Below are positions 39,844 through 61,300 of a stretch of 64,000 bases of DNA, piece after piece (position 1 is the stretch's first letter; every line of letters starts with the position of its first letter). The DNA is taken from contig NC_010530.1 of assembly GCF_000069785.1 (NCBI RefSeq), positions 676,001-740,000 of the forward strand, given 5' to 3'. Below the pieces are notes generated by a model, which saw only the letters and a program-made list of their open reading frames with translations, was not told the origin of the DNA and searched no databases. The position numbers and the translations under genes were made by a program. Source of the stretch: Cupriavidus taiwanensis LMG 19424. GTDB taxonomy: Bacteria; Pseudomonadota; Gammaproteobacteria; Burkholderiales; Burkholderiaceae.

Positions 39844-42297
39844 CTACATCCGGAACACCACGCCCAGCCAGAAGCTGCGGGGCGCGCCCGGCGCCACGAA
39901 CAGCGCGCTGGCGGCATCCCCCGGGGCCACGTGCGGCCGCACCAGGCTGCCGCCGGGGAACACGTCGTTGGCGATCTGGCCGTAGGTCTCGTAGCGGCGG
40001 TCCAGCAGGTTTGCCACGCGCGCGTAGATCTCGAAGCGCTTGCTGACCTGGTACGCCGCGCGCAGGTTGATGGTGGCGTAGCCCGGCGTGCTCCAGTCGG
40101 CGGTCTTCGGCGCGGCGCCCGCTTGCGGGTCGCTGCGCAGGCCGTCCTCGTTGCCGCTGGAGACCGCCCCCGACACCGCCACCAGGTCGGCGCCCAGCAC
40201 CAGGCCGGCCACGGGCTGCCAGTCTGCACCCAGTTTCAGCGTATGGCGGGGCAGCCCGGCCATGCGCATGCCCGGGCGGATGTCGATGGTGCGTTCGCCG
40301 GCGGCGAGCGCGCCGGCGGACTGGTAGGTGGCCTGCAGGTAGCTGTAGGCAAGCCGCAAGGTCACCGCGCCCAGGCGGTGGCGCGCGGTGAGATCGAGCC
40401 CCTGGTTGCGGGTGCGGTCGAAATTGGCGAAGTAGCCGAGCTGCGTGTTCGGTGCGCGCAGGAACAGGATGTCGTCGTGGTTGTCGATGCGATAGAGCGA
40501 CGCCGTGACCTCGGTGTGCGGGCGCGGCTGCCAGCGCACGCCGGCCTCGTACGAATGCGACACTACCTGCTTCAGGTACGGATCGGCCTGCAGTCCCGCC
40601 GGCAACCGGCAGGGCCGTTCCGGGTCGGCGCAGCCCAGCTCGAGCACGGTCGGCACGCGGTTGTTCTGCGCATAGCCGCCGAACACCGTGACGCCGCTGC
40701 CCAGCTTCTGCGCCAGTCCCAGCGCCGGATTCAGGCGGCGGTAGGTAAAGCTTTCGCGCGGCTGTTCGCTGCCGTCGCTGTTGCGCAGCGTATTGCTGAC
40801 GGTAACGTGGTTCCAGCGCGCCGATGCGGTCAGGAAGGTGCTGGGTGTCAGCGTCCACGTATCGGACAGGTACATCCCCAGTGTGCGGGCATTGCCGCTG
40901 ACGCCGGAGAACAGGGCGTTGGCTTCGGCGGGATCGGCGACCACGCCGCGGTCGTCGGTGAAGCTGGCGGGCTGTGCGTATTGCGAATAGGTCAGGCGGC
41001 TGCGGTCCAGCGTCAGGCCGGCATTGAGCACGTGGCGCTCGGTCTCCCTGGCCAGGCTCAGCGCCATGCCGACGGTTTGCTGCCGCATATGGCTGGTGTT
41101 GAGCACCGCCGGGTGCAGCGCGGCGCCTTCCGCACGGGTCATGCCGCAGTCGCCGCCGCGCGGGCTGCCGTCGGCGTCGAAGCCGTCCTCGCAGTCTTCG
41201 GCATAGGCTTCATAGTCCGGGTTCACGTCGCCGTTGGCGGTGTCGCGGCGGCTGTTGCGCACATAGGCCAGGGCCGCGGCGCTGGTCTTGTCGTCGAACC
41301 AGTGACGGGCGTTGAGCGCGGCCTGGGTGACCTGGTTGCGGGTCTGGTCGGGATAGGTGTAGACCGCGCGCCGGTTGGACTGGTACAGCTCGGGCAGCGT
41401 GCCGCCGTCGGCGGCGCGATAGCTGGGCACCAGGCCGTTGCCGGTCAGTGTGCTGCGGCCATGCAGCACCGAGACGTCCCAGCTGCTGCTGGCGCCGGCG
41501 TAGCCCGCCTTGGCAAAGACATTGCCGAGCCGGCCCTCGGAATGGTCGCGCCAGCCGTGCTCCTGGAACAGCGTGCCGGCGGCGAACGCGTGCCAGCCGC
41601 CGTCGCTGCGCACGCCTCCGGACAGGTCGGCGCGCCTGCGGGCATGGCTGCCATAGGACAGGTCGGCGGTGAAGCCGGGCGAGTCCAGTCCCGAACGCGT
41701 GGTCATGGCGAGCGCGCCGCCGAGGGTGTTGAGGCCGTACGCGGGGTTGGCGCTGGACACCAGCGACGCGCTTGCCAGCGCCGCCTCCGGGATCATGTCC
41801 CAGCTCACCACGTCGCCGAAAGGCTCGTTGACGCGGATGCCATCCAGGTACACCGACAGCCCCTGCGGCACGCCGGGGATCGATGACGCGCGAAAGCCGC
41901 GGTAGGTGATGTCGGTCTGGAACGGGCTGCCCTGGATGTCGTTGACGTTGACGCCGGCGAGATGCCGGTTCAGGTAGTCGGCCAGGTTGCCGGCGCGCGC
42001 GCCGCCGAGCTCGCTGCCGCGCACGGTCTGCACGGTATAGGGCACCAGGTCGCTGGCCACGCCGATGCCGGGCAGCGGCGCCGCGGCCACCACCAGCACT
42101 TCGGGCAACAGCGTACTGTCCTGGTTTGGCGCAACAGTGTCCTGTTGCGCCACAGCGGCACGCTGGCACAGCAGCGTGACCAGCGCGGACAGCAGCGCGG
42201 CATGCGTGCTCGCGCGCCGCGGCGGGCGGGCCGCAACGGCGCGCGGCGATCGGGATGGCCGCTGGCCTGGCGGCGCAGGACGCGGGATGGCTGGCAT
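39844..42297 (-). CDS. TonB-dependent outer-membrane receptor of the PQQ island
   Basis: The 817-residue receptor has an N-terminal signal region, a TonB box (LPEVLVVAAAP), a plug domain (LADYLNRHLAGVNVNDIQGSPF, ITYRGFRASS, GLSVYLDGIRVNEPFGD) and a barrel ending WLGVVFRM. The strand patterns are those of the vitamin/metal-type receptors, and it lacks the siderophore-type plug of the receptor at 1.9 kb. The context (PQQ dehydrogenase, Ped-like ABC system) points to uptake of PQQ itself, as E. coli PqqU does, or of a lanthanide chelate. The ATG at 42297 has GGAGA upstream. A sigma54 promoter and an activator-site candidate lie behind it (42362-42448). Confidence 0.83.
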   Translation of the reverse strand: MPAIPRPAPPGQRPSRSPRAVAARPPRRASTHAALLSALVTLLCQRAAVAQQDTVAPNQDSTLLPEVLVVAAAPLPGIGVASDLVPYTVQTVRGSELGGARAGNLADYLNRHLAGVNVNDIQGSPFQTDITYRGFRASSIPGVPQGLSVYLDGIRVNEPFGDVVSWDMIPEAALASASLVSSANPAYGLNTLGGALAMTTRSGLDSPGFTADLSYGSHARRRADLSGGVRSDGGWHAFAAGTLFQEHGWRDHSEGRLGNVFAKAGYAGASSSWDVSVLHGRSTLTGNGLVPSYRAADGGTLPELYQSNRRAVYTYPDQTRNQVTQAALNARHWFDDKTSAAALAYVRNSRRDTANGDVNPDYEAYAEDCEDGFDADGSPRGGDCGMTRAEGAALHPAVLNTSHMRQQTVGMALSLARETERHVLNAGLTLDRSRLTYSQYAQPASFTDDRGVVADPAEANALFSGVSGNARTLGMYLSDTWTLTPSTFLTASARWNHVTVSNTLRNSDGSEQPRESFTYRRLNPALGLAQKLGSGVTVFGGYAQNNRVPTVLELGCADPERPCRLPAGLQADPYLKQVVSHSYEAGVRWQPRPHTEVTASLYRIDNHDDILFLRAPNTQLGYFANFDRTRNQGLDLTARHRLGAVTLRLAYSYLQATYQSAGALAAGERTIDIRPGMRMAGLPRHTLKLGADWQPVAGLVLGADLVAVSGAVSSGNEDGLRSDPQAGAAPKTADWSTPGYATINLRAAYQVSKRFEIYARVANLLDRRYETYGQIANDVFPGGSLVRPHVAPGDAASALFVAPGAPRSFWLGVVFRM
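42127..42152. repeat. Perfect 26-bp palindrome inside the receptor's 5' coding part
   Basis: The arms TGGCGCAACAG and CTGTTGCGCCA are exact complements around TGTC. They lie about 145-170 bp inside the gene, at the end of the signal region. On the transcript they would form an 11-bp stem with a 4-nt loop. Confidence 0.8.
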
Positions 42298-42361
42298 GGC
42301 TTGTCTCCTCGGGATACGCGGCGCATGCCTGCATCGGGCTGCGCCTGTCGGCACCGCTTCA

Positions 42362-42376
42362 GCAGTTTTCGTACCG
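42362..42376 (-). promoter_or_regulatory. Sigma54 promoter of the TonB receptor
   Basis: On the minus strand CGGTACG-AAAA-CTGC has the GG-N10-GC spacing and matches TGGCACG-N4-TTGC at 8 of 11 fixed positions. It lies 65 bp before the start codon. The activator-site candidate at 42432-42448 is about 56 bp further upstream. Confidence 0.6.
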
Positions 42377-42431: not shown

Positions 42432-42448
42432 TGTCACAAAACAGGACA
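42432..42448. promoter_or_regulatory. Candidate activator site (6-5-6) in the receptor/ped divergent gap
   Basis: TGTCAC-AAAAC-AGGACA is an imperfect inverted repeat with the same 6-5-6 architecture as the sites at 49203, 49222, 56200 and 59692. It lies between two divergent sigma54 promoters (42362 and 42604). A second, weaker copy begins at 42494 with TGTTGC. Confidence 0.55.
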
Positions 42449-42603
42449 GTGGGGCGTTGCCGCAAGCAGGGGCAGTGCTTCATCGCGGCACAGTGTTGCG
42501 CGGCGCATCGCAGCATGCGTCGCCGCGCGATGGCGGCAGGGAGCCGTGCAGCGCCGGCCCGGCAAGGTCCGCGGGGATGCGTCATGCCGTGCTGCATCGC
42601 ACA

Positions 42604-42618: not shown

Positions 42619-42657
42619 TCTGTCACACCGCATCCCAACCTGGTCCGGTGCTTGCCC

Positions 42658-43641
42658 ATGTTCCGTTGCCTTGCCTGCCTGCTGTCGATATGCCTCGGCC
42701 TATTGCCCGCGGGCGGCGCGCGGGCCGACGGCGCGAGCGCCTATCCCTCGCGTCCGGTCACGCTGGTGGTGCCCTGGCCGGCGGGCGGCGCCACCGATAT
42801 CTCGATGCGCATCCTGGCCGAGCTCGCCGGGCGCGAACTGGGGCAGCCGATCGTGGTGGAGAACCGGCCCGGCGCCGGCGGCACGCTGGTGGGAGGCCTG
42901 CTTGCCGCCGCGCGGCCGGACGGCTACACCATCGGCCAGCTGCCGCTGACGGTGTACCGGTTCCCGCACCAGCAGAAGACGGCCTGGCAGCCGCTGCGCG
43001 ACATCCAGCCGGTGCTGATGATCTCGGGCTACACCTTCGGCATCGTGGTGCCGGCCGGCAGCCCGTGGCGCTCGCTGCGCGACCTGATTGCCTGGGGCCG
43101 GGCGCACCCGGGCCAGCTCACGGTGGGCTCCACCGGCATCGGCACCACTGCCCACCTGGCGATGGAGGATGTGCTGGGCCGCAGCGGCGTGCGCTACCTG
43201 CACGTGCCCTACCACGGCACTGCCGACCAGATGCTTGCGGTGGCCAACGGCTCGCTGATGGCGGGGGTCAATTCCACCGGCTTCGCACCGTTCGTCGAAA
43301 GCGGCAAGCTGCGCCTGCTGGCCGTGTTCAGCGCGCAGCGCTCGGCACGCTGGCCCGAGGTGCCGACCGTGGCCGAGCTGGGCTTTGCCGATGCGGTCCA
43401 CAACGCTCCGTACGGCATCGGCGTGCCGCGCGGCACCGATGCCGCCATCGTCCGGCGCCTGCACGACGCGTTCCGCGCCGCCATGCAGCAGCCGCGCCAT
43501 CTTGCCGAGCTGGCCCGCTACGACCAGGAGCTGACTTACCTGGGCACCGCGCAATATGAAGCCTTCCTGCGCCAGGCATGGGAGACCGAGCGCACCTTTG
43601 CCGCGCGTGCAGGCACGGCGCGGGCGAAGGAGCAGCTATGA
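42658..43641 (+). CDS. Tripartite tricarboxylate (Bug/TctC) family binding protein
   Basis: The 327-residue exported protein has a signal peptide ending GGARAD, the Bug signature YPSRPVTLVVPWPAGGATDISMR and the ligand-loop motifs VVENRPGAGGTLVGG and VGSTGIGTTAHLAMEDV. Bug proteins bind carboxylates in the periplasm and are very common in Burkholderiales. No TctA/TctB permease is near, and it is coupled to an ABC ATPase gene by a 4-bp overlap (ATGA). It may feed the ABC system that follows or act as a sensor. The ligand is unknown. Confidence 0.85.
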   Translation: MFRCLACLLSICLGLLPAGGARADGASAYPSRPVTLVVPWPAGGATDISMRILAELAGRELGQPIVVENRPGAGGTLVGGLLAAARPDGYTIGQLPLTVYRFPHQQKTAWQPLRDIQPVLMISGYTFGIVVPAGSPWRSLRDLIAWGRAHPGQLTVGSTGIGTTAHLAMEDVLGRSGVRYLHVPYHGTADQMLAVANGSLMAGVNSTGFAPFVESGKLRLLAVFSAQRSARWPEVPTVAELGFADAVHNAPYGIGVPRGTDAAIVRRLHDAFRAAMQQPRHLAELARYDQELTYLGTAQYEAFLRQAWETERTFAARAGTARAKEQL

Positions 43642-44417
43642 GCGCGCAGCCGTCCCATGCCGCGCCTGCGCTTGGCTGCGATGCCGTGCGCAAGGCGTTC
43701 GGCGGCCGCGTCGCGCTGGACGGGGTCTCGCTGAGCGTGCGGCGCGGCGAGTTCGTGGCGCTGCTGGGGCCCAACGGCGCGGGCAAGACCACGCTGTTCC
43801 AGATCCTCAGCGGCCTGTTCGTTGCCGATGCCGGGCAGGTCACGGTGATGGGCTGCGACATGCGGCGCGACCCCGTGCGCGCGCTGGCGCAGCTGGGCAT
43901 CGTGTTCCAGCAGCCCGCCATCGACCTGGACCTGCCGGTGCTGGCCAACCTGCGCTTTCATGCCGACCTGCACGGCTTGCCGCGGCGCGTGGCGGCGCAG
44001 CGGATCGCGGGCCTGCTGCAGGGGTTCGGCCTGGCCGCGCGCGCGCACGCGCCGGTACGCGAGCTGTCCGGTGGCAGCCGGCGCAAGGTCGAACTGGCGC
44101 GCGCGCTGCTGCACGAACCGGCCATGCTGCTGCTGGACGAGCCGACGGTGGGGCTGGACCCCGCCTCGCGCGTGCAGTTGCTGGGCGAGTGCCGGCGGCT
44201 GGCGCGGCACGCGCAGGCGGGCGTGCTGTGGGCCACCCACCTGGTGCAGGAAGTGGAGCAGGCCGACCGCGTGATCGTGCTGGACCGCGGCGCGGTGCGC
44301 TTCGACGGCACCCCGGCGGCGCTGCTGGGCGCCACCGCGGCCGCGACGCTGGAAGCCGCTTTCCTGGCCATGACGCCGTCGGTAGTCCGCACGGCACAAC
44401 TGGAGGTCACCGCATGA
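43638..44417 (+). CDS. pedB: ABC ATPase of the PQQ-linked system (PedB-like)
   Basis: The 259-residue ATPase has Walker A GPNGAGKTTLFQ, signature LSGGSRRKVELARALL, Walker B AMLLLDEP and switch ATHL. It is of the ABC-2 export-type branch (as in NodI/CcmA-like proteins), which in PQQ-dependent alcohol-oxidation clusters goes with PedC. The Pseudomonas putida PedA1A2BC system has been linked to use of lanthanides at low concentration. The ATG overlaps the Bug gene, and the end overlaps the propeller gene. Confidence 0.85.
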   Translation: MSAQPSHAAPALGCDAVRKAFGGRVALDGVSLSVRRGEFVALLGPNGAGKTTLFQILSGLFVADAGQVTVMGCDMRRDPVRALAQLGIVFQQPAIDLDLPVLANLRFHADLHGLPRRVAAQRIAGLLQGFGLAARAHAPVRELSGGSRRKVELARALLHEPAMLLLDEPTVGLDPASRVQLLGECRRLARHAQAGVLWATHLVQEVEQADRVIVLDRGAVRFDGTPAALLGATAAATLEAAFLAMTPSVVRTAQLEVTA

Positions 44418-45442
44418 CACCGATGCCATCCCCCGCCTGGCTTGCGGGCGCCTGGCTGCTGGCCACCGCGTTGCTGGTTGCCGCCGGCCTGGCCGAGGGC
44501 GCTCAGGGCGCTCAGGGTGGTGCCGCGCGCGCCGCCACCGGGCAGGTCTTTGTCTCCAGCGAAAAGGACGACGCGCTGACCGCCTACGATGCCGGCAGCG
44601 GACAGCAACTGGCGGCATGGCGTCAGTGCCGGCGGCCGCGCCATCTGCAGCTGTCGCCGGACCGTGCGCGGCTGTACGTGGCCTGCAGCGACGACCACCG
44701 CGTCGACGTGGTCGACGTCGGCACCCGCAAGACCGTGACGTCGCTGCCGGTCGGCGACGACCCGGAACTGTTCGACCTGAGCCAGGACGGCCGCACGCTC
44801 TACGTGTCGAACGAAGACGACGCGCTGCTGTCGGCCTACGACACCGGCTCCGGCAAGCGCGTGTTCGCGGTCGGGGTGGGCGCGGAGCCGGAAGGCGTCA
44901 GGGTCAGCGCCGACGGACGGCAGGTGTACGTGGCCTCCGAGGTCGCCAACCTGGTCCATGTGGTCGACGTGGCCGCGCGCAAGGTGGTGCGCAATATCCG
45001 GGTCGGCAACCGGCCGCGCCGGCTGCTGCTGGTGCGCGGCGGCAAGGAGCTGTGGGTGTCGAACGAGATGTCGGCCAGCGTCAGCGTGATCCGCACCGAT
45101 ACGCTGGAGGTGGTCCAGACCATTGCCTTCGCGCCGCGCGGCATGCGTGCCGAAGACGTGACCCCGGTCGGGATGGCGGCGCGCAGCGACGGCACCCACG
45201 CCTATATCGGGCTGGGCCGCGCCAACCATGTCGCGGTGGTGGAGGTGGCGTCGCGCCGCGTGCAGGATTACGTGCTGGTGGGACGGCGCGCCTGGGGGCT
45301 GGCGCTGAGCCGCGACAACGCGCGGCTCTACGTTGCCAACGGGCTGTCCGACGATGTCAGCGTGGTCGACACCGCCAGCCGCAAGGCGGTGGCCACGCTC
45401 AAGGCGGGCCGCGTGCCGCATTCGGTGGCGATCGATGACTGA
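44414..45442 (+). CDS. Exported YVTN beta-propeller protein of the PQQ/ABC locus
   Basis: The 342-residue protein has a signal peptide followed by about seven repeats of the YVTN type: VFVSSEKDDALTAYDAGSG, LYVACSDDHRVDVVDVGT, LYVSNEDDALLSAYDTGSG, VYVASEVANLVHVVDVAA, LWVSNEMSASVSVIRT, then AYIGLGRANHVAVVEVAS and LYVANGLSDDVSVVDTAS. It corresponds to the PQQ-dependent-catabolism propeller (PedA2-like). Its periplasmic role is unknown. It overlaps both neighbours. Confidence 0.85.
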   Translation: MTPMPSPAWLAGAWLLATALLVAAGLAEGAQGAQGGAARAATGQVFVSSEKDDALTAYDAGSGQQLAAWRQCRRPRHLQLSPDRARLYVACSDDHRVDVVDVGTRKTVTSLPVGDDPELFDLSQDGRTLYVSNEDDALLSAYDTGSGKRVFAVGVGAEPEGVRVSADGRQVYVASEVANLVHVVDVAARKVVRNIRVGNRPRRLLLVRGGKELWVSNEMSASVSVIRTDTLEVVQTIAFAPRGMRAEDVTPVGMAARSDGTHAYIGLGRANHVAVVEVASRRVQDYVLVGRRAWGLALSRDNARLYVANGLSDDVSVVDTASRKAVATLKAGRVPHSVAIDD

Positions 45443-46613
45443 GCGCGCGCTGGCGGTGCTGGCCTTTACGCTTGCGGCGGTGCTGGCGTCGCCACTGCAT
45501 GCCGCGGAGGTGCGCGTGGCGGTAGTGTCGCTGGCCGACGATGCCCGCCACGCGCCGCGGCGGCTGGCGCAGCGCTACCCCGACCAGCCGCAGGGCAGCG
45601 CGCTCGACGCCGCCCGGGTGGCGGCGGCGGAAGCGCGCTTTGCGCTGGAGGCCGCGGGCCAGTCGCTTCGGGTCGAGGCGCAGCAGGCCCGCACCGAAGC
45701 CGAGGTGGCCACGCTGGTTGCGGCGCTGGCGCGCCAGGGCACGCGTTTTATCCTGCTGGACCTGCCGCCGGCTTCGGTCAGGGCCGCGGCGGGCGCCGTC
45801 AGGCCCGGCGAGGCGCTGCTGTTCAATGTCTCGGCCGACGACGATGCATTGCGCGGCGCCGGCTGCGCGCCGGTGTTGCTGCATACGCTGCCGAGCATGC
45901 GCATGCGCGCCGACGCGCTGATGCAGTACCTGGCCGCGCGCAAGTGGCGCCGCGCGCTGTTGCTGAGCGGCCCCACGGCGGCCGACGCCGCGCAGCGCGA
46001 CGCGCTGGTGGGCGCGGCGCGGCGCTTCGGCATCGCCTGGAGCGCGCAGCGCGCGTTCCGGCTGTCCAACGATCCGCGCGAGCGCGACCAGGCCAATGTC
46101 AGGCTGCTGACCGGTGGCGCGGACTACGACGTGGTGGTGGTGGCCGACGCCGACGGCGAGTTCGCGCGCGGCCTGCCTTATGCCACGCAGCTGCCGCGCC
46201 CGGTGGTGGGCGCCAGCGGCCTCGGCGCGCAAGCCTGGCACTGGGCCTGGGAGCGCAACGGCGGGCCGCAGCTCAACCGGCGCTTCGCCCGCGCCGCGGG
46301 CCGGCCGATGACCGGCTACGACTGGGCCGCCTGGGTCGCGGTCAAGGCGATTGCCGAGAGCGTGGTGCGGCAGCCCGCGGGCTTTGCCGCGCAGGCGCAG
46401 GCACTGGCCGCGGGGCAGGTGGTGGTGGACGGCTTCAAGGGCCCGCCGCTGTCGTTCCGGCGCTGGGACCGCCAGCTGCGCCAGCCGCTGATGCTGGCGC
46501 ACCCCGACGGCGTAATCGGCACCGCGCCGGTCGAAGGCGTGCTGCATCCGAAGAACAACCTCGACACGCTGGGCGCCGACGAAGCCGACACCGCGTGCCG
46601 CGCCCCGACCTGA
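45435..46613 (+). CDS. Periplasmic binding protein of the PQQ-linked ABC system
   Basis: The 392-residue protein has a signal peptide (AFTLAAVLASPLHAAE) and a type-I periplasmic-binding (LivJ-like) fold: VRVAVVSLADDARHAPRR, ARQGTRFILLDLPPASV, LLFNVSADDDALRG, YLAARKWRRALLLSGPT and DYDVVVVADADGEFARG. It fits the PQQ_ABC_bind family (PedA1-like). It overlaps the propeller gene by 8 bp and is followed by the permease after 4 bp. The ligand is unknown. Lanthanide or its chelate is a reasonable guess. Confidence 0.8.
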   Translation: MTERALAVLAFTLAAVLASPLHAAEVRVAVVSLADDARHAPRRLAQRYPDQPQGSALDAARVAAAEARFALEAAGQSLRVEAQQARTEAEVATLVAALARQGTRFILLDLPPASVRAAAGAVRPGEALLFNVSADDDALRGAGCAPVLLHTLPSMRMRADALMQYLAARKWRRALLLSGPTAADAAQRDALVGAARRFGIAWSAQRAFRLSNDPRERDQANVRLLTGGADYDVVVVADADGEFARGLPYATQLPRPVVGASGLGAQAWHWAWERNGGPQLNRRFARAAGRPMTGYDWAAWVAVKAIAESVVRQPAGFAAQAQALAAGQVVVDGFKGPPLSFRRWDRQLRQPLMLAHPDGVIGTAPVEGVLHPKNNLDTLGADEADTACRAPT

Positions 46614-46617: not shown

Positions 46618-47448
46618 ATGACCCTGCCCGCCACCATGCCTTCGTCGATGCGCCATCGCTGGCGTGCGCTGCGCGCGGTCTGCGGCCGCGAGCTGCGCAA
46701 GTACGTGCGCCAGCCCGGGCGGCTGCTGTCGTCGCTGGTGCGCCCGCTGCTGTGGCTGCTGGTGTTCGCCGCCGGCTTCCAGAACGCGCTGGGCGTTGCC
46801 ATCGCGCCGCCGTATGACAGCTATATCGAATACCAGGTCTATGTCGCGCCCGGGCTGCTGGGCATGATCGCGCTGTTCAACGGCATGCAGTCGTCGCTGG
46901 CCATGGTGTACGACCGCGAGATGGGTGTGATGCGGCTGCTGCTGACCGCGCCGCTGCCACGCGGCTGGCTGCTGGGCTGCAAGCTGGCGGCGGGCACGCT
47001 GCTGTCGCTGCTGCAGATGGCGGCCTTCCTGCTGGTGGCGGCGGGGTTCGGCATCCGATTTGCGCCGCTGCACCTGCTGGCGGGCTTGGGCGCGATGACG
47101 CTGGCCGCGCTGATGCTGGGCGCGCTCGGCCTGCTGCTGTCGGTCCACGTGCGCCAGCTGGAGAACTTTGCCGGGACCATGAACTTCGTGATCTTCCCGA
47201 TGTTTTTCATCAGCTCGGCGCTGTATCCGCTGTGGCGCCTGCAGGAGTCGGGCGCCGACGCGGTGTACCAGCTGGCGCGCCTGAACCCGTTCACGCATGC
47301 GGTGGAGGCGATCCGCTTCGCGCTGTACGGGCAGCTGGCGCCCCAAAGCCTGGCCATCGTCGCGGGCGGCGCAGTGGTTTTCTTCGCGCTGGCGCTGCGC
47401 GGCTATGACCCGCAGCGCGGCATGGCGCGCCGCGGGCCGCCGGCATGA
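46618..47448 (+). CDS. pedC: ABC-2-type permease, PedC-like
   Basis: The 276-residue membrane protein has six helices and the ABC-2 motif RELRKYVRQPGRLLSSLVRPLLWLLVFAAGFQ at the start. GMIALFNGMQSSLAMVYDREMGVMRLLLTAPLPRGW and IFPMFFISSALYPLW are typical. It is the membrane part for the ATPase at 43638. It overlaps the SoxYZ-like gene by 4 bp. Confidence 0.85.
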   Translation: MTLPATMPSSMRHRWRALRAVCGRELRKYVRQPGRLLSSLVRPLLWLLVFAAGFQNALGVAIAPPYDSYIEYQVYVAPGLLGMIALFNGMQSSLAMVYDREMGVMRLLLTAPLPRGWLLGCKLAAGTLLSLLQMAAFLLVAAGFGIRFAPLHLLAGLGAMTLAALMLGALGLLLSVHVRQLENFAGTMNFVIFPMFFISSALYPLWRLQESGADAVYQLARLNPFTHAVEAIRFALYGQLAPQSLAIVAGGAVVFFALALRGYDPQRGMARRGPPA

Positions 47449-48245
47449 TGCGCCGCCGGCAAGGCATGGTGCTGCTGGTGCTGGCCTGGCTGCGGCTGGC
47501 CAACACCAGCGCATTCGCAGACACCGGCACCGGTGCGGTCATGGCGCACAGCGATCCCATGCAGTCGCCGCAATGGGCCTGGATCCACAAGGAACTGCTG
47601 CAGCAGGGGCCGGTGGTGTTCGACAGCCGCGTGCGCGTCACCGGGCCCGCTTTCGCGGAAGACCCCATGCGCGTGCCGATTGCCTTCGACGCGTCGGCGC
47701 TGGGCGAAGTCGAGCGCATCGTGGTGGCGGTGGACCGCAACCCGATCCGCCCGGTGCTGGCGTTCGAGCCGCTGCGGGTGCGGCCGTCGCTGTCGTTCCG
47801 CTTCAAGCTCGAGCAGGCCTCGCCGGTGCGGGTGGCGGCACGCACGCGCGATGGTACCTGGCATGTCGGCAGCGCATGGGTCGACGCCGGCGGTGGTGGC
47901 TGCACCGTGCCCGGCGCGACCCGCCGCGACGGCAGCTGGAGCCGCACGCTCAACCGGGTCGAGGCGCGCGTATTCCCGGGACTTGGCGAGGGCGGCGCAC
48001 GCGTGCGGCTGCGCGTGATGCACCCGATGGACACCGGCCTGGTCGCCGGCATCCCGGCGTTCCATATCGAAACGCTGGTGCTGGCCGACGCGTCCAGGCA
48101 GCCCCTGTTGCGCCTGGCCCTGCACGAGCCCGTGGCCGAGAACCCGATCTTCTCGTTCGACCTGCGCGAGGCCGTGGTGCCGGGCATGACCGTGTCCGGC
48201 CACGACAACAATGGCAACCACATCGCGGCGCGGGTGTCGCCATGA
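47445..48245 (+). CDS. Quinoprotein-associated SoxYZ-like fused carrier
   Basis: The 266-residue exported protein is a fusion of a SoxY-like and a SoxZ-like domain. The SoxY domain ends in AWVDAGGGGCTVPG, where Cys153 sits in the Gly-rich swinging arm, and the SoxZ part follows (VRLRVMHPMDTG...). In Sox enzymes the Cys carries sulfur intermediates. The version near PQQ dehydrogenases is found together with the zinc-hydrolase-like proteins and is of unknown function. It overlaps both neighbouring genes. Confidence 0.83.
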   Translation: MMRRRQGMVLLVLAWLRLANTSAFADTGTGAVMAHSDPMQSPQWAWIHKELLQQGPVVFDSRVRVTGPAFAEDPMRVPIAFDASALGEVERIVVAVDRNPIRPVLAFEPLRVRPSLSFRFKLEQASPVRVAARTRDGTWHVGSAWVDAGGGGCTVPGATRRDGSWSRTLNRVEARVFPGLGEGGARVRLRVMHPMDTGLVAGIPAFHIETLVLADASRQPLLRLALHEPVAENPIFSFDLREAVVPGMTVSGHDNNGNHIAARVSP

Positions 48246-49186
48246 GGCGCGTATTGCCGTCGCTGCTGCTGTGGCTGGCCACTGCCGCGGTCTGCGCGGC
48301 ACCCGCGCAGCCACCCGACTACCGGCTGGCCCCACGCGAGATCGCCGCCGGCGTGTGGCTGCTGGAAGGCGCCAACGCCGACTTCGCGCCGGAAAATGGC
48401 TGCAACATCATCAATACCGCGTTCCTCGACACCGGCGACGGCGTGGTGGTGATCAACACCGGTCCGTCGCGCGCGTACGGCGAGCAGCAGCGCCGTGCCA
48501 TCGCGGCGCTGACCGGCGCGCCGGTACGGCTGGTGCTGAACCTGAACCAGCATCCCGATTATTTCTTCGGCAACCAGGCCTATGCCGACGTAGGCGGCAG
48601 CGCGCTGCCCGCCACCATCGCGGGCGCGCAGCGCGAAGGCGCGGCCTATGCCGACAACCTCTACCGATTGTGCGGCGACTGGATGCGCGGCACCGAGCCC
48701 GCGCCGCCGGCGCATGCGCTGGAGGCCGGGCCACGCACGATCGGCCGCCGCACGCTGGAGCTGATCCGCCTGCAAGGCCACACCGACGCGGACCTGGTGC
48801 TGCTGGACCGGGATGCCGGCATCGTCTTTGCCGGCGGGCTGGTGTTCCGTGAGCGCATTCCGACCACGCCGCACGCGCACATCGGCCGCTGGCTGGACAG
48901 CCTCGCGCGGCTGCAGGCGCTGATGGAGCAGAGCGGGGCGCGCCTGCTGGTGCCCAGCCACGGGCCCGCGCTGGGCGGCACGGAAGCCATCGCGCAGACG
49001 CGCGCCTACCTGCAATGGCTGGATGGGCGGCTGCGCCAGGCCGCGGCGCAGGGACGCGACCTGGCCGAGGTCATGGCCATGCCGGTGCCCGAGCCTTTTG
49101 CGCGCTGGGGCGCGATGCCCGCCGAGTATCTGCGCAACGTGATCCATCTCTACCCGGCGCACGAGGAAGCCGCGCTGGGCCAGTGA
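48242..49186 (+). CDS. Quinoprotein relay metallo-beta-lactamase-fold protein 2
   Basis: The 314-residue exported protein has the MBL fold. It starts YRLAPREIAAGVWLLEGANADFAPENGCNIINTAFLDTGDGVVVINTGPS. The metal site is altered: the usual HxHxDH reads NQHPDY (LNLNQHPDYFFGN), and the later GD of the fold is GG (FAGGLVF). One His and the Asp of HPD remain, so zinc binding is doubtful. The end of the ABC/SoxYZ operon is followed by the sigma54-controlled dehydrogenase. Confidence 0.8.
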   Translation: MRRVLPSLLLWLATAAVCAAPAQPPDYRLAPREIAAGVWLLEGANADFAPENGCNIINTAFLDTGDGVVVINTGPSRAYGEQQRRAIAALTGAPVRLVLNLNQHPDYFFGNQAYADVGGSALPATIAGAQREGAAYADNLYRLCGDWMRGTEPAPPAHALEAGPRTIGRRTLELIRLQGHTDADLVLLDRDAGIVFAGGLVFRERIPTTPHAHIGRWLDSLARLQALMEQSGARLLVPSHGPALGGTEAIAQTRAYLQWLDGRLRQAAAQGRDLAEVMAMPVPEPFARWGAMPAEYLRNVIHLYPAHEEAALGQ

Positions 49187-49316: not shown

Positions 49317-49383
49317 CATTTGCGTGCTGGTGTGTGGCGCAGTGGCGCACCAGCGAAACCCAAAACAATGAGAGGAGATGGCA

Positions 49384-53555: not shown

Positions 53556-53799
53556 GTTTGACAAAGGCGTGGACCTCCGGCGCGATGCCCTGCACGCCAA
53601 AGGCTGCCTGCAGGTCGTCGATCAGCATGTCGAGGGTATGGTTGCCGTCGCAGCGCTGCAGGATCGCGGCGGCGCTGTCGTTGAGGGTGACCATCCCTTC
53701 CGGATACAGCAGCACCCAGCTTTGCTGCGAGTCTTCCCACTGCAGGCGGAAGGTGCGGTGCAGGGTGGGCGTGGCGAGGTCTTGCGTGCCGGCGGTCAT
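53527..53799 (-). CDS. pqqD: PqqA-binding chaperone PqqD
   Basis: The 90-residue RiPP-recognition protein brings PqqA to PqqE. It has [36 protein letters not shown], characteristic of PqqD, and overlaps pqqC by 4 bp and pqqE by 29 bp. Confidence 0.94.
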
Positions 53800-54488
53800 G
53801 GGTTGGCCTGCTGGATGGCATCGAGCATCGACCACAGCACGTCGAGCTTGAATTGCAGGATGTCGAGGGCGCGCTGCTGTTGCGCGGCGCTGCGGAAGTA
53901 GTCCAGCGTCACGCGCAAGCCGTGGTCGACGTCGCGCCGCGCCAGCGGGATGCGCGAGCGGAAGTAGTCCAGCCCCCCGGCCTCGATCCACGGATAGTGC
54001 GAGGGCCAGCCGGCCAGCCGCTCCTGGTGGATCTTGGGCGCGAACATCTCCGTCAGCGACGAGCACACCGCCTCCTGCCAAGGCGCGCGGCGCGCGAAGT
54101 TGACATAGGCATCGACGGCGAAGCGCACGCCGGGCAGCACCTGCTGGTGGCTCAGCAGCGCGTCGCGCTCCAGGCCGACAGCCTCGCCCAGCCGCAGCCA
54201 GGCCTCGATGCCGCCGGGCTGGGTGTCAGTGCCGTCGTGGTCGAGGATGCGCACCACCCATTCGCGGCGCGTGGCGCGGTCGGGGCAGTTGGACAGGATC
54301 GCGGCGTCCTTCAGCGGGATGCTGGCCTGGTAGTAGAAGCGGTTGGCCACCCAGGTGCGGATCTGCGCGGGCGTGCATTGGCCTGCCGCCATGCGCTGGT
54401 TGAACGGGTGGTGGATGTGGTAGCCGCTTTCGCGGGCGCGCAGGCGCGCCTCGAATTCGGCCGGAGTCCAGGCAACGGTGGCAGTCAT
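53796..54488 (-). CDS. pqqC: Pyrroloquinoline-quinone synthase PqqC
   Basis: The 230-residue all-helical oxidase carries out the last ring closure and oxidation to [35 protein letters not shown] and [50 protein letters not shown] hold the conserved substrate-binding His, Arg and Tyr residues. It overlaps pqqB and pqqD by 4 bp each. Confidence 0.95.
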
Positions 54489-55402
54489 AGCGCGATTTCC
54501 ATGCCGTCGTAAGCCAGCTCGATGCCGTGCCGGGCCAGCTCGGCACGCTCGGGCGAGTCTTCCGCCAGCACCGGATTGGTGTTGTTGATATGGATGAGGA
54601 TCTTGCGGCGGGCGGGCAGGCGGTCCAGCACCTCGATCATCCCGCCCGGCCCGGACAGGGCCAGGTGGCCCATGTCGGCGGCGCTGCGCGTGGAGAAGCC
54701 CAGCGCCTGCATTTCGTCGTCGCGCCAGAAAGTGCCGTCGACCAGCACCACGTCGGCGCGGCGCAGCTGCGCGAACACGTGGTCGTCGACCTGGCCCAGC
54801 CCTGGCGCATAGAAGGCGCTGCGTCCGCTGTGGCGGTCTTCGATGCGCAGGCCGATGTTGTCGCCGGGTTGCGGCGCGTGGCGCCTGGGCGAGTAGGGCG
54901 GCGCCTTGCTTTGCAGCGGGACCGCGGTAAGCGCCACGCCATCGAGCGGCGGCACCGAGAACGCCATGCCGTCGCAGGGCAGCGCGTGGCACTGCAGCCC
55001 GCAATAGTGCGACAGGATGCGCGTCAGCGGAAACGCCCCTGCCAGGTCTTCGAGCACGCTGGCGGTGGCATAGAGCGGCAGCGCCCGGCGGTGCTCGCGC
55101 AGCATCAGCAGGCCGGTGACGTGGTCGATCTGCGCGTCCATCAGCAGCACCGCGGCAATCGCGGTGTCGCGCGCGGCGCGGGCGGGTTGCAGCGCGGGGG
55201 TCTGGCGCAGCTGCTGCAGGATGTCGGGCGAGGCGTTGACCAGGATCGCTTCCGGGCCGTCGCCGCACACCGCGATCGACGATTGCGTGCGCGGCGTGGC
55301 GCGCACGGTGCCGCGGCGCACGCCGTCGCAGTTGCGGCAATTGCAGTTCCACTGCGGGAAGCCGCCGCCGGCGGCCGATCCCAGTACCCGGATGGTGGTC
55401 AT
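54485..55402 (-). CDS. pqqB: PQQ synthesis hydroxylase PqqB
   Basis: The 305-residue MBL-fold protein hydroxylates the tyrosine of the intermediate. The N-terminal [25 protein letters not shown] carries the structural Cys pair, and the active-site region reads [19 protein letters not shown]. The ATG at 55402 is followed by the family's exact start. It is 93 bp after pqqA. Confidence 0.94.
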
Positions 55403-55495
55403 GGCGCGAGCGCTCGAGGGTGGGCCATGGCGTTGCCGCGCAGGCGCCATGCCGGCAACCGCCGGCGGCGCCCGTCTGCGAAACGCGGCGGCGGA

Positions 55496-55570
55496 TCAGC
55501 GGTTGGCGATATACATCGTGATTTCAAAGCCGAGCCGCAGCTCGGTATAGGCGGGCGTGGTCCACGTCAT
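55496..55570 (-). CDS. pqqA: PQQ precursor peptide PqqA
   Basis: This 24-residue peptide is the backbone for PQQ. It begins [14 protein letters not shown] and then [10 protein letters not shown], with the Glu and Tyr three residues apart that become PQQ. GGAGAC stands before the ATG. It is the first gene of pqqABCDE. No pqqF is present in the window. The gap to the neighbouring hydrolase start is 84 bp. Confidence 0.96.
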
Positions 55571-55645
55571 GTCTGTCTCCTTGGGTGGCATGGTTAGTGA
55601 TTAGCGTCGCGGCATGGCAGCGTGGCTGCCGCAAGGCCCTGAAAG

Positions 55646-55660
55646 GCAACAACCATGCCC
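55646..55660 (-). promoter_or_regulatory. Sigma54 promoter of pqqA
   Basis: On the minus strand GGGCATG-GTTG-TTGC has the GG-N10-GC spacing and differs from consensus at two of 11 fixed positions. Its transcript would start near 55634, about 64 nt before pqqA. The element overlaps the ATG of the divergent hydrolase gene. Confidence 0.65.
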
Positions 55661-56590
55661 GACCCGATCATGGACAGCACCGTCTTCCACCTGCGCACGC
55701 CGGACGCCCAGCGCCTGCACGTGCGGCTGAGCGGTCCGCCGCAGGGCGAGCCCTGGCTGGTCCTTCACGGCGGACCGGGCAGCGGCTGCGCGGCATCGAT
55801 GGCGGCATGGTTCGATCTGCAACGGCACCGCGTGGTGATGCCCGACCAGCGCGGCGCCGGCCGCTCGACGCCGGTAGGCGGCCTGCGGCGCAACAACGTC
55901 GGTGCGCTGCTGGCCGACCTGGAACAGCTGCGCACGGCGCTGGGCGTGGCGCGCTGGGGCGTTGTCGGCGGATCGTGGGGCGCGGCGCTGGCGCTGGCCT
56001 ACGCCGCGCGCTATCCGCATGCGGTGGCCGCGCTGGTGTTGCGCGGCGCCTTCCTGACCGGGCGCGACGACGTGCTGGGCTTGTTTGCGCCGCGCGCCGG
56101 CGCAGGCCTGCTGCGCCGCGTCGCGCCGGCCGGCGAGCGGCTGCCCGACGCGCGCGCCCGGCTGCTGACGGTGTCCCGACTGTTGCAAAGTGGGACGGCT
56201 GTTCAAAAACGGGACACCGCGGCGGCGTGGCGCCGGCTCGAGCTGGAGCGGCTCGGCCTGCGCGACGTTGCACAGGGAATCCGGCAGTCCGCGCGCGAGC
56301 GGCTGGCCGCGGTACGCAAATACCGCATCCAGGCGCATTACCTGCGCAACCGCGCCCGGCTGGGCAAGCCGGCGTTGCTGCGCGCGGCGCGGGACATCGC
56401 CGCGCATGGCCTGCCGGTGACGCTGCTGCATGGCCGCGCCGACGCGGTGTGCCGGCCCGCCAATGCCCTGCGGTTGCGGCAGGCCATGCCGGTCGCGCGG
56501 CTGACATGGGTCGACGGCGGGCACCTGCCGGACGGCGCCTTGCGCGACGCGCTCGCCGGCGCGATCCGCGCCAGCGCCTGGCGGCGCTGA
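55655..56590 (+). CDS. Alpha/beta hydrolase, prolyl-aminopeptidase-like (S33)
   Basis: The 311-residue protein has the oxyanion motif LHGGPGSGC, the nucleophile elbow GGSWGAAL and the catalytic Asp and His in GRADAVC and DGGHLPDG, so the Ser-Asp-His triad is complete. It resembles proline iminopeptidases (EC 3.4.11.5). It lies head to head with pqqA, and no pqqF-type M16 protease is in the window, so a role in cleaving PqqA or its product is possible but unproven. It overlaps the relay MBL gene by 1 bp. Two candidate activator sites lie inside its coding sequence. Confidence 0.8.
   Translation: MPDPIMDSTVFHLRTPDAQRLHVRLSGPPQGEPWLVLHGGPGSGCAASMAAWFDLQRHRVVMPDQRGAGRSTPVGGLRRNNVGALLADLEQLRTALGVARWGVVGGSWGAALALAYAARYPHAVAALVLRGAFLTGRDDVLGLFAPRAGAGLLRRVAPAGERLPDARARLLTVSRLLQSGTAVQKRDTAAAWRRLELERLGLRDVAQGIRQSARERLAAVRKYRIQAHYLRNRARLGKPALLRAARDIAAHGLPVTLLHGRADAVCRPANALRLRQAMPVARLTWVDGGHLPDGALRDALAGAIRASAWRR
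56181..56216. promoter_or_regulatory. Intragenic pair of activator-site candidates
   Basis: TGTTGC-AAAGT-GGGACG (56181-56197) and TGTTCA-AAAAC-GGGACA (56200-56216) start 19 bp apart, the same spacing as the pair at 49203-49238. They lie inside the hydrolase gene, about 520 bp from the pqqA promoter and 375 bp before the MBL gene. An additional TGTCCC (56172-56177) lies just before them. Confidence 0.5.
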
Positions 56591-57549
56591 TGGCAACGCG
56601 TCGCGCCTTTCTCGGCACCACGCTGGCACTGGCGCTCGACGCCTGGCGGCCCGCCACGGCGGCCGGCACGCGGGTTGTGCTGGACCGGCTGCAGCCCGGC
56701 ATCTACGTCGCCCGCGCCGCCAATGCCGAAGCCACGCGCGCCAACGCCGGCGCGGTGGTGCCCAGCCTGGTCCATGTCACGCGCGCGGGCGTGCTGGTGG
56801 TCGATCCCGGGCCGCAGGCGGCGTGGGGCGGCGCGCTGCTCGGCGCGATCCGGGCGCTGACGACGCAGCCGGTGCGCTGGGTGGTCAACACCCATGCCCA
56901 TCCGGAGCACGTGCTGGCCAACACGGCCTTCGCCGGGCTGCGGCCGCGGCCGCAGTTCCTGGCGTCGGCCGCCACTGCCGCGTTGATGCGGCAACGATGC
57001 GAGGCCTGCCTGGCCAGCCTGAGCGCGCAGCTCGGGCCCGCGGCCGTGCGCGGTACCGCGATCGTGCTGCCGGAGCCGGCGCTGCAGGACGGCGCGTGGC
57101 TGCACACGGGCGACACGGCGTGGCGGGTGCAGGTGCATGCGCCCGCCCACAGCGCCTCGGACACCGTGCTGTACGCGCCGCAGCGGCGCCTGCTGTGCGC
57201 CGGCGGACTGGCGTACCGCGAACGCGTGCCGGAGATGCAGGAAGCGTCGCTGCAGGGCTGGCGCCAGGCGCTGCGGCAGTTGACCACGCTGCCGGCGGAC
57301 ACCGTCGTCGCCACCGCGACGGGCACGCCCGCGCAGACGCTGGTGCCGACGCTGGCGTACCTCGATGCGCTTGCGAACGGCATCGGCGCGGCGCTGGCGG
57401 CCGGTCATGATGCAAACCAGGCGGCCGATGCCGTGGCGGCCGGGCCGTTCCGCCACTGGCGCCATTTCCCGACGCGCCATCCGCTCAACCTCCAGCGCGC
57501 CTGGCGCCAGCTGGAGGACGCGTGGATGCAGGGCGAGCCGCCGGCCTGA
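56590..57549 (+). CDS. Quinoprotein relay metallo-beta-lactamase-fold protein 1
   Basis: The 319-residue exported protein has a Tat-like start (TRRAFLGTTLAL) and the MBL fold. The metal motif reads NTHAHPEHVLAN, so the three His of HxHxDH are kept but the Asp is Glu. The downstream GD is GG (LCAGGLAY). It is a paralogue of the protein at 48242. The pair is a hallmark of PQQ/SoxYZ-like 'relay' loci. It overlaps the hydrolase stop by 1 bp. Confidence 0.82.
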   Translation: MATRRAFLGTTLALALDAWRPATAAGTRVVLDRLQPGIYVARAANAEATRANAGAVVPSLVHVTRAGVLVVDPGPQAAWGGALLGAIRALTTQPVRWVVNTHAHPEHVLANTAFAGLRPRPQFLASAATAALMRQRCEACLASLSAQLGPAAVRGTAIVLPEPALQDGAWLHTGDTAWRVQVHAPAHSASDTVLYAPQRRLLCAGGLAYRERVPEMQEASLQGWRQALRQLTTLPADTVVATATGTPAQTLVPTLAYLDALANGIGAALAAGHDANQAADAVAAGPFRHWRHFPTRHPLNLQRAWRQLEDAWMQGEPPA

Positions 57550-57573: not shown

Positions 57574-59583
<2,010 letters not shown>

Positions 59584-59659: not shown

Positions 59660-59708
59660 TGTTGCGTGGTGAAGCAAAACACTTGCCAGGGTGTGGCATT
59701 CCGGGACA
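59660..59708. promoter_or_regulatory. Activator-site candidates between regulator and cytochrome
   Basis: TGTTGC-GTGGT-GAAGCA (59660-59676) and TGTGGC-ATTCC-GGGACA (59692-59708) match the 6-5-6 pattern of the other sites. They lie 73-122 bp upstream of the cytochrome's -24 box. The first overlaps the -12 end of the regulator's own promoter, so it could mediate negative autoregulation. Confidence 0.55.
59674..59688 (-). promoter_or_regulatory. Sigma54 promoter of the activator gene
   Basis: On the minus strand TGGCAAG-TGTT-TTGC matches -24/-12 at 10 of 11 fixed positions. It lies 91 bp before the regulator's ATG and between the two candidate activator sites. Confidence 0.6.
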
Positions 59709-59855: not shown

Positions 59856-60335
59856 ATGAAAACGCAGCGCCGCCTGCTCGCCTTGCTCTCGCTTTGCGCG
59901 TCCCTGACCGCTTTTTCCGCCGGCCCGGTGCTGGCCCACGGCGATGTCACGCCCCAGGCCGTCGACACCAAAGCGTTACCACAGCTGGGCGACGAATGGC
60001 GTCCGGACAATCCCTACCGCACAGGCGATGCGCACAAAGAGGCGCTGCGCATCGGCTCGTCGGCGTACAACCAGAACTGCGCGCGCTGCCACGGTCTGGA
60101 AGCCGTGTCGGGCGGCATTGCTCCCGACCTGCGCAAGCTGGACGGCGACTGCGTCGCGCTGGCTGACGCCAAAAAGAAGCAGGCCTGCCAGAGCGAGATC
60201 TCGCAGTTCTATGCCACCACCGTGCGCAAGGGCCGCACCCGCGACGGCCGTGTCTACATGCCGCCGTTCGACGGCGTGCTCAGCCAGGAGGCGGTCTGGG
60301 CCATCAAGACGTACCTGGAATCGCGCCACGAGTAA
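59856..60335 (+). CDS. pedF: Cytochrome c550, PedF-like
   Basis: The 159-residue periplasmic cytochrome has a signal peptide ending GPVLAHGD, the haem site CARCH ([16 protein letters not shown]), two more Cys about 20 residues apart ([20 protein letters not shown]) that form the extra disulfide of the four-Cys c550 family, and the Met ligand in VYMPPFDG. In Pseudomonas the homologue takes electrons from PQQ alcohol dehydrogenases. It is divergent from the activator. Confidence 0.9.
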
Positions 60336-60391
60336 GGTCCGTCGTGACCCTATGCAAGCCGCCGGTTCCTTCGTCCAATTGGAGAAAGCCC

Positions 60392-61300
60392 ATGACTGCC
60401 AGCCCTGTCCGCGGCCCACGGCTTACCGTTTCCATCCTGCCCGCGCTGCCGGCGCGGGTGCTGCGCTGGCTCGGCCGCGTCCTGCTGGCTGGCGCCGCCT
60501 TGCTCAGCATGGCGCCGGCGCATGCCGACCTGGCCCGGATCCGCCAGGCCGGCACGCTGAAGGTGGCAGTGTACAAGGGCCTGCCGCCGTTTTCGGCGCT
60601 GGCCGGGAGCCAGTACGCCGGCATCGATGTGGCACTGGCGCAGGCGCTGGGCAAGGCGCTGGGCCTGTCCGTGGCGCTGATGCCGTTCGATGCCGACGAG
60701 AACATGGCCGACGACCTGCGCGCCATGGTCTGGCGTGGCCATTACCTGGGCTACGGCCCGGCCGACGTGATGCTGCACGTGCCGGTGGATCGGGCCTTCA
60801 TGCAAGCCAACGACAAGGCGCTGATCATCGCCCCTTACTATCGCGAGACCTTCGTGCTGGTGCGGGACCGCGAGCGGGTACCGGACGTGCGCGGCCTGGA
60901 AGACCTGGCCGGCCAGCCGACCGGCGCGGCCGCGGGCTCGGCCGGCGCCAATGCGCTGTTGTCCGGGGGCGGCGGCGTGCTGCGCGACCGGGTCCGGATT
61001 TACCCCGAGGCCGGCCTGGCGCTGCACGCGCTGTTCTCGGGCGAGATCGCCGCGGCGCTGGTGACGCGCGCGCAGTATGAAAGCGCCCTCAAGGCGGGCG
61101 GCCACGCCGCCAGCCGCTATGCCGCCAGCGATATCAGCGCGCCGCTGCTGCCGCCGCGCGGCTGGGCCGTCGGCATGGCGGTCAAGGCCGGCGAACGCGA
61201 ACTGGCCGAGGCGCTGCAGTCAGCGCTGGACACGCTGCGCGGCAATGGCGAGCTGGCGCGCATTTTCGGCGGCTACGGAGTGTCGATGCAGGCGCCGTGA
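60392..61300 (+). CDS. Quinoprotein-associated periplasmic binding protein (MoxJ-like)
   Basis: The 302-residue exported protein is of the type-II periplasmic-binding (SBP_bac_3) fold. After a signal peptide ending MAPAHADLA comes RIRQAGTLKVAVYKGLPPFSAL, then GIDVALAQALGKALGLSVALMPFDADENMADDLRAMVW and RGHYLGYGPADVMLHVPVDRAFM. Such proteins sit beside PQQ dehydrogenases and are related to MxaJ/XoxJ, which help mature or bind the dehydrogenase. GGAGAA precedes the ATG at 60392. It is 56 bp after the cytochrome gene and probably in the same transcript. Confidence 0.85.
   Translation: MTASPVRGPRLTVSILPALPARVLRWLGRVLLAGAALLSMAPAHADLARIRQAGTLKVAVYKGLPPFSALAGSQYAGIDVALAQALGKALGLSVALMPFDADENMADDLRAMVWRGHYLGYGPADVMLHVPVDRAFMQANDKALIIAPYYRETFVLVRDRERVPDVRGLEDLAGQPTGAAAGSAGANALLSGGGGVLRDRVRIYPEAGLALHALFSGEIAAALVTRAQYESALKAGGHAASRYAASDISAPLLPPRGWAVGMAVKAGERELAEALQSALDTLRGNGELARIFGGYGVSMQAP

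Follow-up and report, generated by a model that had tools for sequence, protein, structure and literature searches.

In the present study, we analysed a 64-kb stretch of the genome of Cupriavidus taiwanensis LMG 19424 (G000:C3:676001-740000, hereafter the window; 6.48 Mb in three contigs), which carries a 21-kb island of genes for alcohol oxidation dependent on pyrroloquinoline quinone (PQQ). We consider it highly probable that a single AcoR-type activator encoded in the island, together with sigma54, controls alcohol oxidation in this strain, including PQQ synthesis and the distant acetaldehyde dehydrogenase gene exaC. An earlier, sequence-only reading of the window had proposed one sigma54 regulon around the island, pqqA included, and our results support the proposal: a 17-bp palindrome, the candidate activator site, lies upstream of five of six -24/-12 boxes, within 200 bp of four of them and 548 bp from that of pqqA, and all six boxes recur in relatives. 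The case is carried by this conservation and by the shared palindrome, not by box score.

The six boxes with GG-N10-GC spacing listed in the sequence-only reading were all found in place (positions are those of the window). They stand before the genes for a TonB-dependent receptor (TonB; CGGTACGAAAACTGCT, 42361-42376, minus strand, with CTGC rather than TTGC), a Bug/TctC-type solute-binding protein that opens the Bug/ped operon (Bug; TGGTATCGGCCTTGCT, 42604-42619, plus strand), the PQQ alcohol dehydrogenase (ADH; TGGCATGGGATTTGCC, 49302-49317, plus strand), PqqA (GGGCATGGTTGTTGCC, 55645-55660, minus strand), the activator (TGGCAAGTGTTTTGCT, 59673-59688, minus strand) and the cytochrome c550 PedF (TGGTATGGCTCTTGCG, 59782-59797, plus strand). 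The pqqA box overlaps the start codon of a divergent gene for a prolyl-aminopeptidase-like hydrolase (PIP). Whether these six would rank at the top, a check proposed along with them, received a divided answer. Using a matrix whose weights follow the published consensus, the activator, ADH, Bug and PedF boxes ranked first, second, fourth and fifth on both strands of the window, and those of pqqA and TonB 16th and 28th. A scan of the genome with a model built from 37 rows of relatives' boxes (R2) gave six matches at E<=10 (150 of 2190 candidates scored), which included PedF and ADH and none of the other four boxes; since the window's PedF site matches one of the 37 rows letter for letter, the place of PedF is partly built in. 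The stricter pattern TGGYAN6TTGC occurs 129 times in the 6.48 Mb, compared with 41 times for its reversed control, and five times in the island, where about 0.4 would be expected at the genome rate; these five are four of the six boxes and one site inside the TonB gene. Box score alone was rejected as proof, given the ranks of TonB and pqqA and the lack of enrichment of loose matches.

Expectation-maximisation on 61 PedF upstream regions, with no other sequences in the training, yielded the palindrome, whose form at width 17 is TGtTnCatnatGnAaCA. Widths of 15-20 were tried, at which 31, 15, 35, 19, 35 and 27 of the 36 held-out ADH regions scored above the control percentile, and width 17 was chosen among them; at this width, 35 of the 36 exceeded the 95th percentile of 288 control regions. 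Two first guesses, GCAAC-N-GTTGC and CAGTGTTGC, were dropped after this unbiased learning. The TonB and Bug promoters have one site in common in the intergenic region between them (42476..42492, 13.7 bits; distance to the box 108 bp for TonB and 120 bp for Bug), beside which a weaker copy (42432..42448, 10.4 bits) recurs in close relatives. The ADH site (49203..49219, 16.3 bits) lies 91 bp from its box, and the PedF site (59660..59676, 16.0 bits) 114 bp from its own. The best site of the window (56200..56216, 17.1 bits) is that of pqqA and lies inside the PIP coding region, as does a weaker second one (56181..56197, 9.1 bits). All five of the window's best sites, and six of its eight sites of at least 10 bits, are in the island.

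With thresholds of 10 bits for the palindrome and 10.4 bits for the box, exactly four palindrome-box pairs at 30-200 bp occur in the 64 kb, namely those of TonB, Bug, ADH and PedF, compared with a mean of 0.22 and a maximum of one in 60 Markov shuffles. When distances up to 650 bp are allowed, the pairs number six, pqqA and one site at 1605 joining the first four (shuffles: mean 0.6, maximum 3). Among 96 other TGGYAN6TTGC sites, which lie in 90 other genome stretches drawn from the first 100 of the 129 matching places, one had a palindrome of at least 10 bits within 300 bp, and this at a distance of only 30 bp. A strict form of the palindrome pattern has 16 matches in the genome and none in the island, because the island sites deviate from the strict form.

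Recurrence was examined in the best 80 of 392 loci that have a relative of the activator; in these, the island genes were placed by tblastn. A box of at least 13 bits precedes pedF in 61 of 61 loci and the ADH gene in 36 of 44. Upstream of pqqA, a GG-N10-GC box is found at 57-115 bp in all 43 loci (11.5-18.8 bits; 10 score at least 13). The remaining 33 score only 11.5-11.8 bits, near the shuffle 95th percentile of 11.5, and therefore count by their constant place and sequence rather than by score. In Cupriavidus and Ralstonia, this box overlaps the PIP start codon, so that its conservation there is in part shared with the coding sequence; in several other genera it takes the classical TGGCAY form. 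The activator gene has a box of at least 15 bits in all 26 loci L042-L067 (Cupriavidus, Ralstonia and three labelled Burkholderiaceae only) and one of at least 13 bits in 32 of all 80 loci. Before the TonB gene, a GG-N10-GC site of at least 9.7 bits (range 9.7 to 12.6) occurs in 27 of 30 loci of the genus, our own included, at 43-83 bp before the inferred start, except for three at the inferred start itself; two loci have degenerate sites (L168 and L169, 6.2 and 7.2 bits) and one has none (L178). The TonB scores fall within the shuffle range, and it is recurrence in place that makes the TonB case. The Bug box is kept in 17 of 21 loci, again including our own genome, and in the four exceptions (L199-L202, from genomes G184, G079, G309 and G115), Bug has exaC directly before it in the same orientation and may be transcribed behind exaC there. 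Control genes had boxes in 4 of 264 cases (PqqE 0/46, PqqD 0/47, PqqC 3/47, PIP 0/43, cytochrome c551 1/23 and, at 13 bits or more, the MoxJ-like gene 0/58), with null rates of approximately 1 to 3 percent. PqqB (10/47) was left out of the controls, since its 350-bp upstream region holds the pqqA promoter.

The palindrome of pqqA is distant from its box. A palindrome of at least 10 bits is found within 1200 bp in 42 of 43 pqqA loci, the widening of the search from 260 to 1200 bp being post hoc and shuffled loci giving 0.105 sites per kb. Thirty-six of the 42 lie 514 to 583 bp away, inside the PIP frame wherever that frame is intact. Six loci have a shortened or decayed PIP or none that could be found (L046, L047, L049, L084, L089 and L108), and there the palindrome stands 70-249 bp from the pqqA box; for L046, L047 and L049, its position is within a PIP remnant, where inertia is a possible explanation for its retention. 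We regard an enhancer of pqqA embedded in the neighbouring PIP gene as likely rather than certain. Just upstream of the pqqA ribosome site, a conserved element, TGGCAT(A/G)NNNN(G/A)TGA, is present on the opposite strand (55586-55600); its strict form, TGGCAYGN4RTGW, occurs in 16 of 43 pqqA loci (L042-L118), where about 0.001 would be expected per locus. The element resembles a -24 half with GA replacing GC at -12. The idea that it is the PIP promoter was not adopted, as a related form persists in L047 and L049, where PIP has decayed.

Candidate targets outside the island were also found. In 19 loci with a relative of the activator and no PedF in reach, the palindrome-box pair precedes ExaC-like genes in eight and other genes in some; membership in the ExaC family was tested for L072 only, the remaining ExaC-like calls being made by similar N-terminal letters. 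From these pairs, exaC was predicted as a target in the genome of the window. The gene lies at C3:1789595-1791112, 1.05 Mb from the island, and has a 20.2-bit palindrome with an 11.0-bit box 91 bp downstream of it; no relative of the activator is present in the 14-kb stretch around it. A palindrome of at least 13 bits and a box of at least 10 bits precede exaC in 29 of 30 Cupriavidus loci, our own included (L302 falls short, with 11.0 bits), and these loci are closely related (92-100% exaC identity), exaC having been absent from the palindrome training. Of 40 genomes of the genus, 26 have an activator match (E<=1e-150), and 25 of these also have exaC (E<=1e-200); of the other 14, 2 have it (Fisher P 2e-7, with kinship ignored and some of the 26 matches lower-scoring). 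The regulon therefore probably extends beyond the island to exaC. In five Cupriavidus genomes (G184, G079, G115, G309 and G271), exaC stands beside Bug or beside the activator gene, physically joined to regulon members.

The activator gene (57574..59583, minus strand) encodes, as the sequence-only reading had recognised, a protein of the AcoR type; Pfam profiles and the translation gave a GAF domain (PF01590), an AAA+ domain with GAFTGA (PF00158) and a Fis-type helix-turn-helix (HTH; PF02954). None of the 25 NCBIfam families listed for it, which include no AcoR model, reached its cut-off, DhaR giving 266 bits where 551 are needed. In 59 of 80 loci, this gene and pedF are divergent neighbours. 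One protein of the genome matches the activator at E<=1e-150 (4 of 42 candidates scored), and rpoN occurs once. The -12 element of the box before the activator gene is, in Cupriavidus and Ralstonia, overlapped by the PedF palindrome (59660-59676), and a second palindrome (59692..59708, 12.4 bits) ends 3 bp short of the -24 side; the block is conserved in an alignment of nine loci. Since binding at overlapping or flanking palindromes should hinder the polymerase, the activator may limit its own expression rather than being co-activated.

The closest matches of the ADH in the PDB are 6zcv and 6zcw, which we take to be structures of the Pseudomonas putida PedH type. It carries WDFDG, as these do, and 1flg has WDFSG at the same place, that is, it lacks the second Asp two residues past the catalytic Asp. 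A second Asp at that position marks lanthanide use. The island ADH is, by its residues, PedH-like and of the lanthanide type, and presumably uses a lanthanide. This Asp is kept in the ADH of 41 of 44 relatives, with one motif unread and WDFSG in L047 and L107. In the latter two, the ADH in the activator locus is of the calcium type (52% identity) with box and palindrome present, which suggests that one regulon can accommodate an ADH of either metal type. Two proteins of the genome pass the TIGR03075 cut-off, namely the island ADH and a haem-fused type (L010, G000:C1:1649641-1651239) with a C-terminal haem-binding part (CVLCH) and the metal site WDYTS, upstream of which neither a good palindrome nor a good box was found; no calcium-type PedE-like partner is present among the TIGR03075 proteins above the cut-off. 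The PedA1A2BC transporter has been reported to be essential for efficient growth of P. putida at low lanthanide (PMC6839425), and all four component families (TIGR03863, TIGR03864, TIGR03866 and TIGR03861) are represented above cut-off in adjacent genes of the island. By sequence comparison, PqqU/YncD (6V81, 9C4O) is not among the four PDB matches of the TonB receptor at E<=1e-3. It is probable that the regulon includes lanthanide uptake.

The families of the 20 island proteins scanned were assigned with NCBIfam and Pfam profiles. On the minus strand, the TonB-dependent receptor gene (39844..42297) matches PF00593 and PF07715, its NCBIfam matches all being below cut-off. The genes that follow on the plus strand encode Bug (42658..43641, PF03401), the ABC ATPase of the PQQ-alcohol system (PedB-like, 43638..44417, TIGR03864, 333 bits for a cut-off of 302), a PQQ-associated beta-propeller (PedA2-like, 44414..45442, TIGR03866), an ABC substrate-binding protein (PedA1-like, 45435..46613, TIGR03863), the ABC permease PedC (46618..47448, TIGR03861), a quinoprotein-associated SoxYZ-like carrier (47445..48245, TIGR04557) and quinoprotein relay metallohydrolase 1 (48242..49186, TIGR04558), those named without a score being above cut-off. 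The PedH/ExaF-like ADH gene (49378..51147, plus strand, TIGR03075, 771 bits) is followed on the same strand by that of a small c-type cytochrome (51348..51671) with a weak cytochrome c551 match below cut-off. Between it and pqqE, the stretch 51185-52210 holds an HSRAGGNP-type reading frame and repeated low-complexity sequence, in which no gene was recognised and families were not searched. The minus strand then carries pqqE (52380..53558, TIGR02109), pqqD (53527..53817, TIGR03859), pqqC (53796..54491, TIGR02111), pqqB (54485..55405, TIGR02108) and pqqA (55499..55573, TIGR02107), all above cut-off. The divergent PIP gene (55655..56590, plus strand) reaches 177 bits with TIGR01249, below the cut-off of 260. 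Behind it, on the same strand, lies a second gene resembling quinoprotein relay metallohydrolases (56593..57549, start approximate; TIGR04559, 164 bits, below the cut-off of 280), which is absent from the gene list of the sequence-only reading. The pedF gene (59856..60335, plus strand) matches TIGR04494 with 207 bits for a cut-off of 122. It is followed by a gene for a MoxJ-like quinoprotein-associated solute-binding protein (60344..61300, plus strand; TIGR03871, weak and below cut-off), which is probably co-transcribed with pedF.

Reading binding, transcription, operon limits and lanthanide use from the boxes, palindromes, conservation, co-location and gene families, we propose a scenario for the control of alcohol oxidation in this strain. 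The AcoR-type activator may sense a small molecule through its GAF domain and bind the 17-bp palindromes, and its hydrolysis of ATP would open sigma54-RNA polymerase complexes at five promoters, namely those of the TonB receptor gene, the Bug-pedABC-SoxYZ-SoxH operon, the PedH-like dehydrogenase gene, pqqABCDE, and pedF with the MoxJ-like gene. At pqqA, the palindrome within the divergent hydrolase gene would act by DNA looping, and on exaC, the activator would act in trans. The alcohol oxidised in the periplasm is most likely ethanol, and the steps from ethanol to acetate, cofactor synthesis, the electron acceptor and, probably, lanthanide uptake would thus come under one control. In Cupriavidus and Ralstonia, the palindromes over and beside the activator's own sigma54 box would make its expression self-limiting. 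As to whether the arrangement holds throughout Burkholderiales, with a dedicated sigma54 activator, in place of LuxR-type or two-component control, running a lanthanide-type PQQ regulon that includes cofactor synthesis and exaC, an enhancer of pqqA embedded in coding sequence at about 550 bp and outlasting PIP decay, and an activator that limits itself through sites over its own promoter, we see the chances as evenly balanced.

Several results weigh against this regulon or parts of it. The window holds no excess of loose matches to the box consensus (132 with at most three mismatches, where 157 would be expected), and by score the boxes of TonB and pqqA are weak, neither exceeding the shuffle 95th percentile of its 350-bp region (12.5 and 11.5 bits). 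The box threshold used for the palindrome-box pairs was chosen after the TonB score (10.6 bits) was known, and eight of the 44 ADH loci are without a box of at least 13 bits. A palindrome model of 48 rows, none of them from the window (R1), gave no genome-wide match at E<=10 with 150 of 338 candidates scored; in the window, its matches were weak. At pqqA, the palindrome lies within 260 bp in only 6 of 43 loci, and five of the six loci that have pqqBCDE and PIP without a detectable pqqA (L068, L069, L071, L074, L075 and L090) carry no palindrome of at least 10 bits, L090 being the one that does. At the PIP palindrome, synonymous codons are not distinctly more conserved than elsewhere; in 21 Cupriavidus and Ralstonia sequences, the best segment overlapping it scored 0.709, compared with 0.597 overall and up to 0.797 in other segments, and in other genera, too, there was no excess at the palindrome. 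Finally, no pair was found in 7 of the 19 loci that lack PedF, exaC might answer to another AcoR-like protein, and the palindrome itself could belong to a related activator.

These last points lead to the strongest of the alternatives, in which the promoters are indeed of the sigma54 type and the main driver is another activator, such as an acetoin-type AcoR or a CbrB/NtrC-type protein, with the local activator serving pedF and the ADH gene only. We judge this unlikely. The pairs before ExaC-like genes do occur with related activators in the absence of PedF, the palindrome of pqqA is unusually far from its box, and exaC in G107, G172, G196 and G237 may use a lower-scoring relative (1e-184 to 1e-203). 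In addition, mutation of cbrB or crcZ raises pqqA transcript levels in Pseudomonas aeruginosa, which the authors, in the text available, call mostly an indirect effect (PMC3480352). However, one and the same palindrome is common to PedF, ADH, TonB/Bug, pqqA and exaC, the activator gene keeps its place divergent from pedF in most loci, and, among the candidates scored, one protein of this genome matches the activator at E<=1e-150. A Pseudomonas-like scheme, in which LuxR-type or two-component regulators hold control and sigma54 adds to it in the manner of Azospirillum, is more doubtful still. The Pseudomonas ped genes are run by AgmR and PedS2/PedR2 according to the portions consulted of two papers (PMC12997753, PMC6115532), and in Azospirillum brasilense Sp7, a quinoprotein alcohol dehydrogenase is placed under sigma54 and a LuxR-type regulator by the title of a paper (Singh 2017). 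By contrast, the island encodes a GAFTGA activator with putative sites at five of the six boxes, and a search confined to 20 island proteins revealed no LuxR-type or two-component regulator and no histidine kinase/LuxR-type switch for rare earth elements of the PedS2/PedR2 kind. That the boxes and palindromes are chance or by-products of coding, as the unenriched loose consensus and the unraised synonymous constraint at the PIP palindrome might suggest, is hard to square with the held-out recurrence, the recurrence at the unlinked exaC, the shuffles and the near-zero control genes, and deserves almost no credence. Control by the local AcoR-type activator and sigma54 is thus the reading we prefer.

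The sequence-only reading had called sigma54 control notable by comparison with Pseudomonas. The comparison crosses families, the host being Cupriavidus. A 2026 review of the Pseudomonas ped system describes LuxR-type and two-component regulators and, in its accessible text, does not mention AcoR and names sigma54 once, for CbrB (PMC12997753). The island resembles the P. putida ped cluster in its PedH-like dehydrogenase, PedA1A2BC-like transporter, PedF-family cytochrome and PQQ-linked beta-propeller and differs from it in regulation, with AgmR (LuxR-type) and PedS2/PedR2 there and an AcoR-type sigma54 activator here. A link between sigma54 and ethanol is, however, already in print. Ralstonia solanacearum requires rpoN1 for growth on ethanol, and its AcoR-type activator Rsc3129 is predicted to control exaC (PMC4676750), which likewise ties sigma54 and an AcoR-type activator to ethanol and exaC. 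A term search of the available text of that paper gave no match for pqq, alcohol or quinone, and the regulon passages show no PQQ genes, although the references of the paper cite the quinoprotein ethanol system of P. aeruginosa (PMC4676750). The Azospirillum dehydrogenase, going by the same title, is similar to that of the island in its link to sigma54 and different in that the regulator named is LuxR-type. Given these precedents in R. solanacearum and Azospirillum, sigma54 as such is less unexpected. AcoR/DhaR-type activators have in common with the island protein the GAF domain, the AAA+ domain with GAFTGA and the Fis-type HTH, and differ in their target genes. BmoR of Thauera butanivorans is described, in the part of the source consulted, as an alcohol-responsive sigma54 activator that drives an alkane monooxygenase promoter (PMC6366067). 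In the accessible text of a 2025 survey of sigma54 regulons, the term PQQ is absent (PMC12316311), and AcoR-type control of pqq genes was found in none of the open-licence titles and abstract starts among the matches listed, with subscription literature mostly outside this range. As far as the sequence tells, the regulon is a new wiring of known parts, in which a known kind of regulator and promoter is applied to a whole PQQ alcohol regulon.

The activator, its 17-bp site, the promoters and the unlinked exaC together offer a complete and testable regulon for PQQ-dependent alcohol oxidation, relevant to many bacteria of soil and plants. The palindrome may serve as a tool for finding alcohol regulons and for building alcohol-responsive promoters. 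A further question raised is how the cell handles an enzyme of the lanthanide type when the island shows no evident switch for lanthanides. The results of the present study suggest that the same enzyme machinery has been wired to unrelated regulator classes in Pseudomonas and in Burkholderiales.

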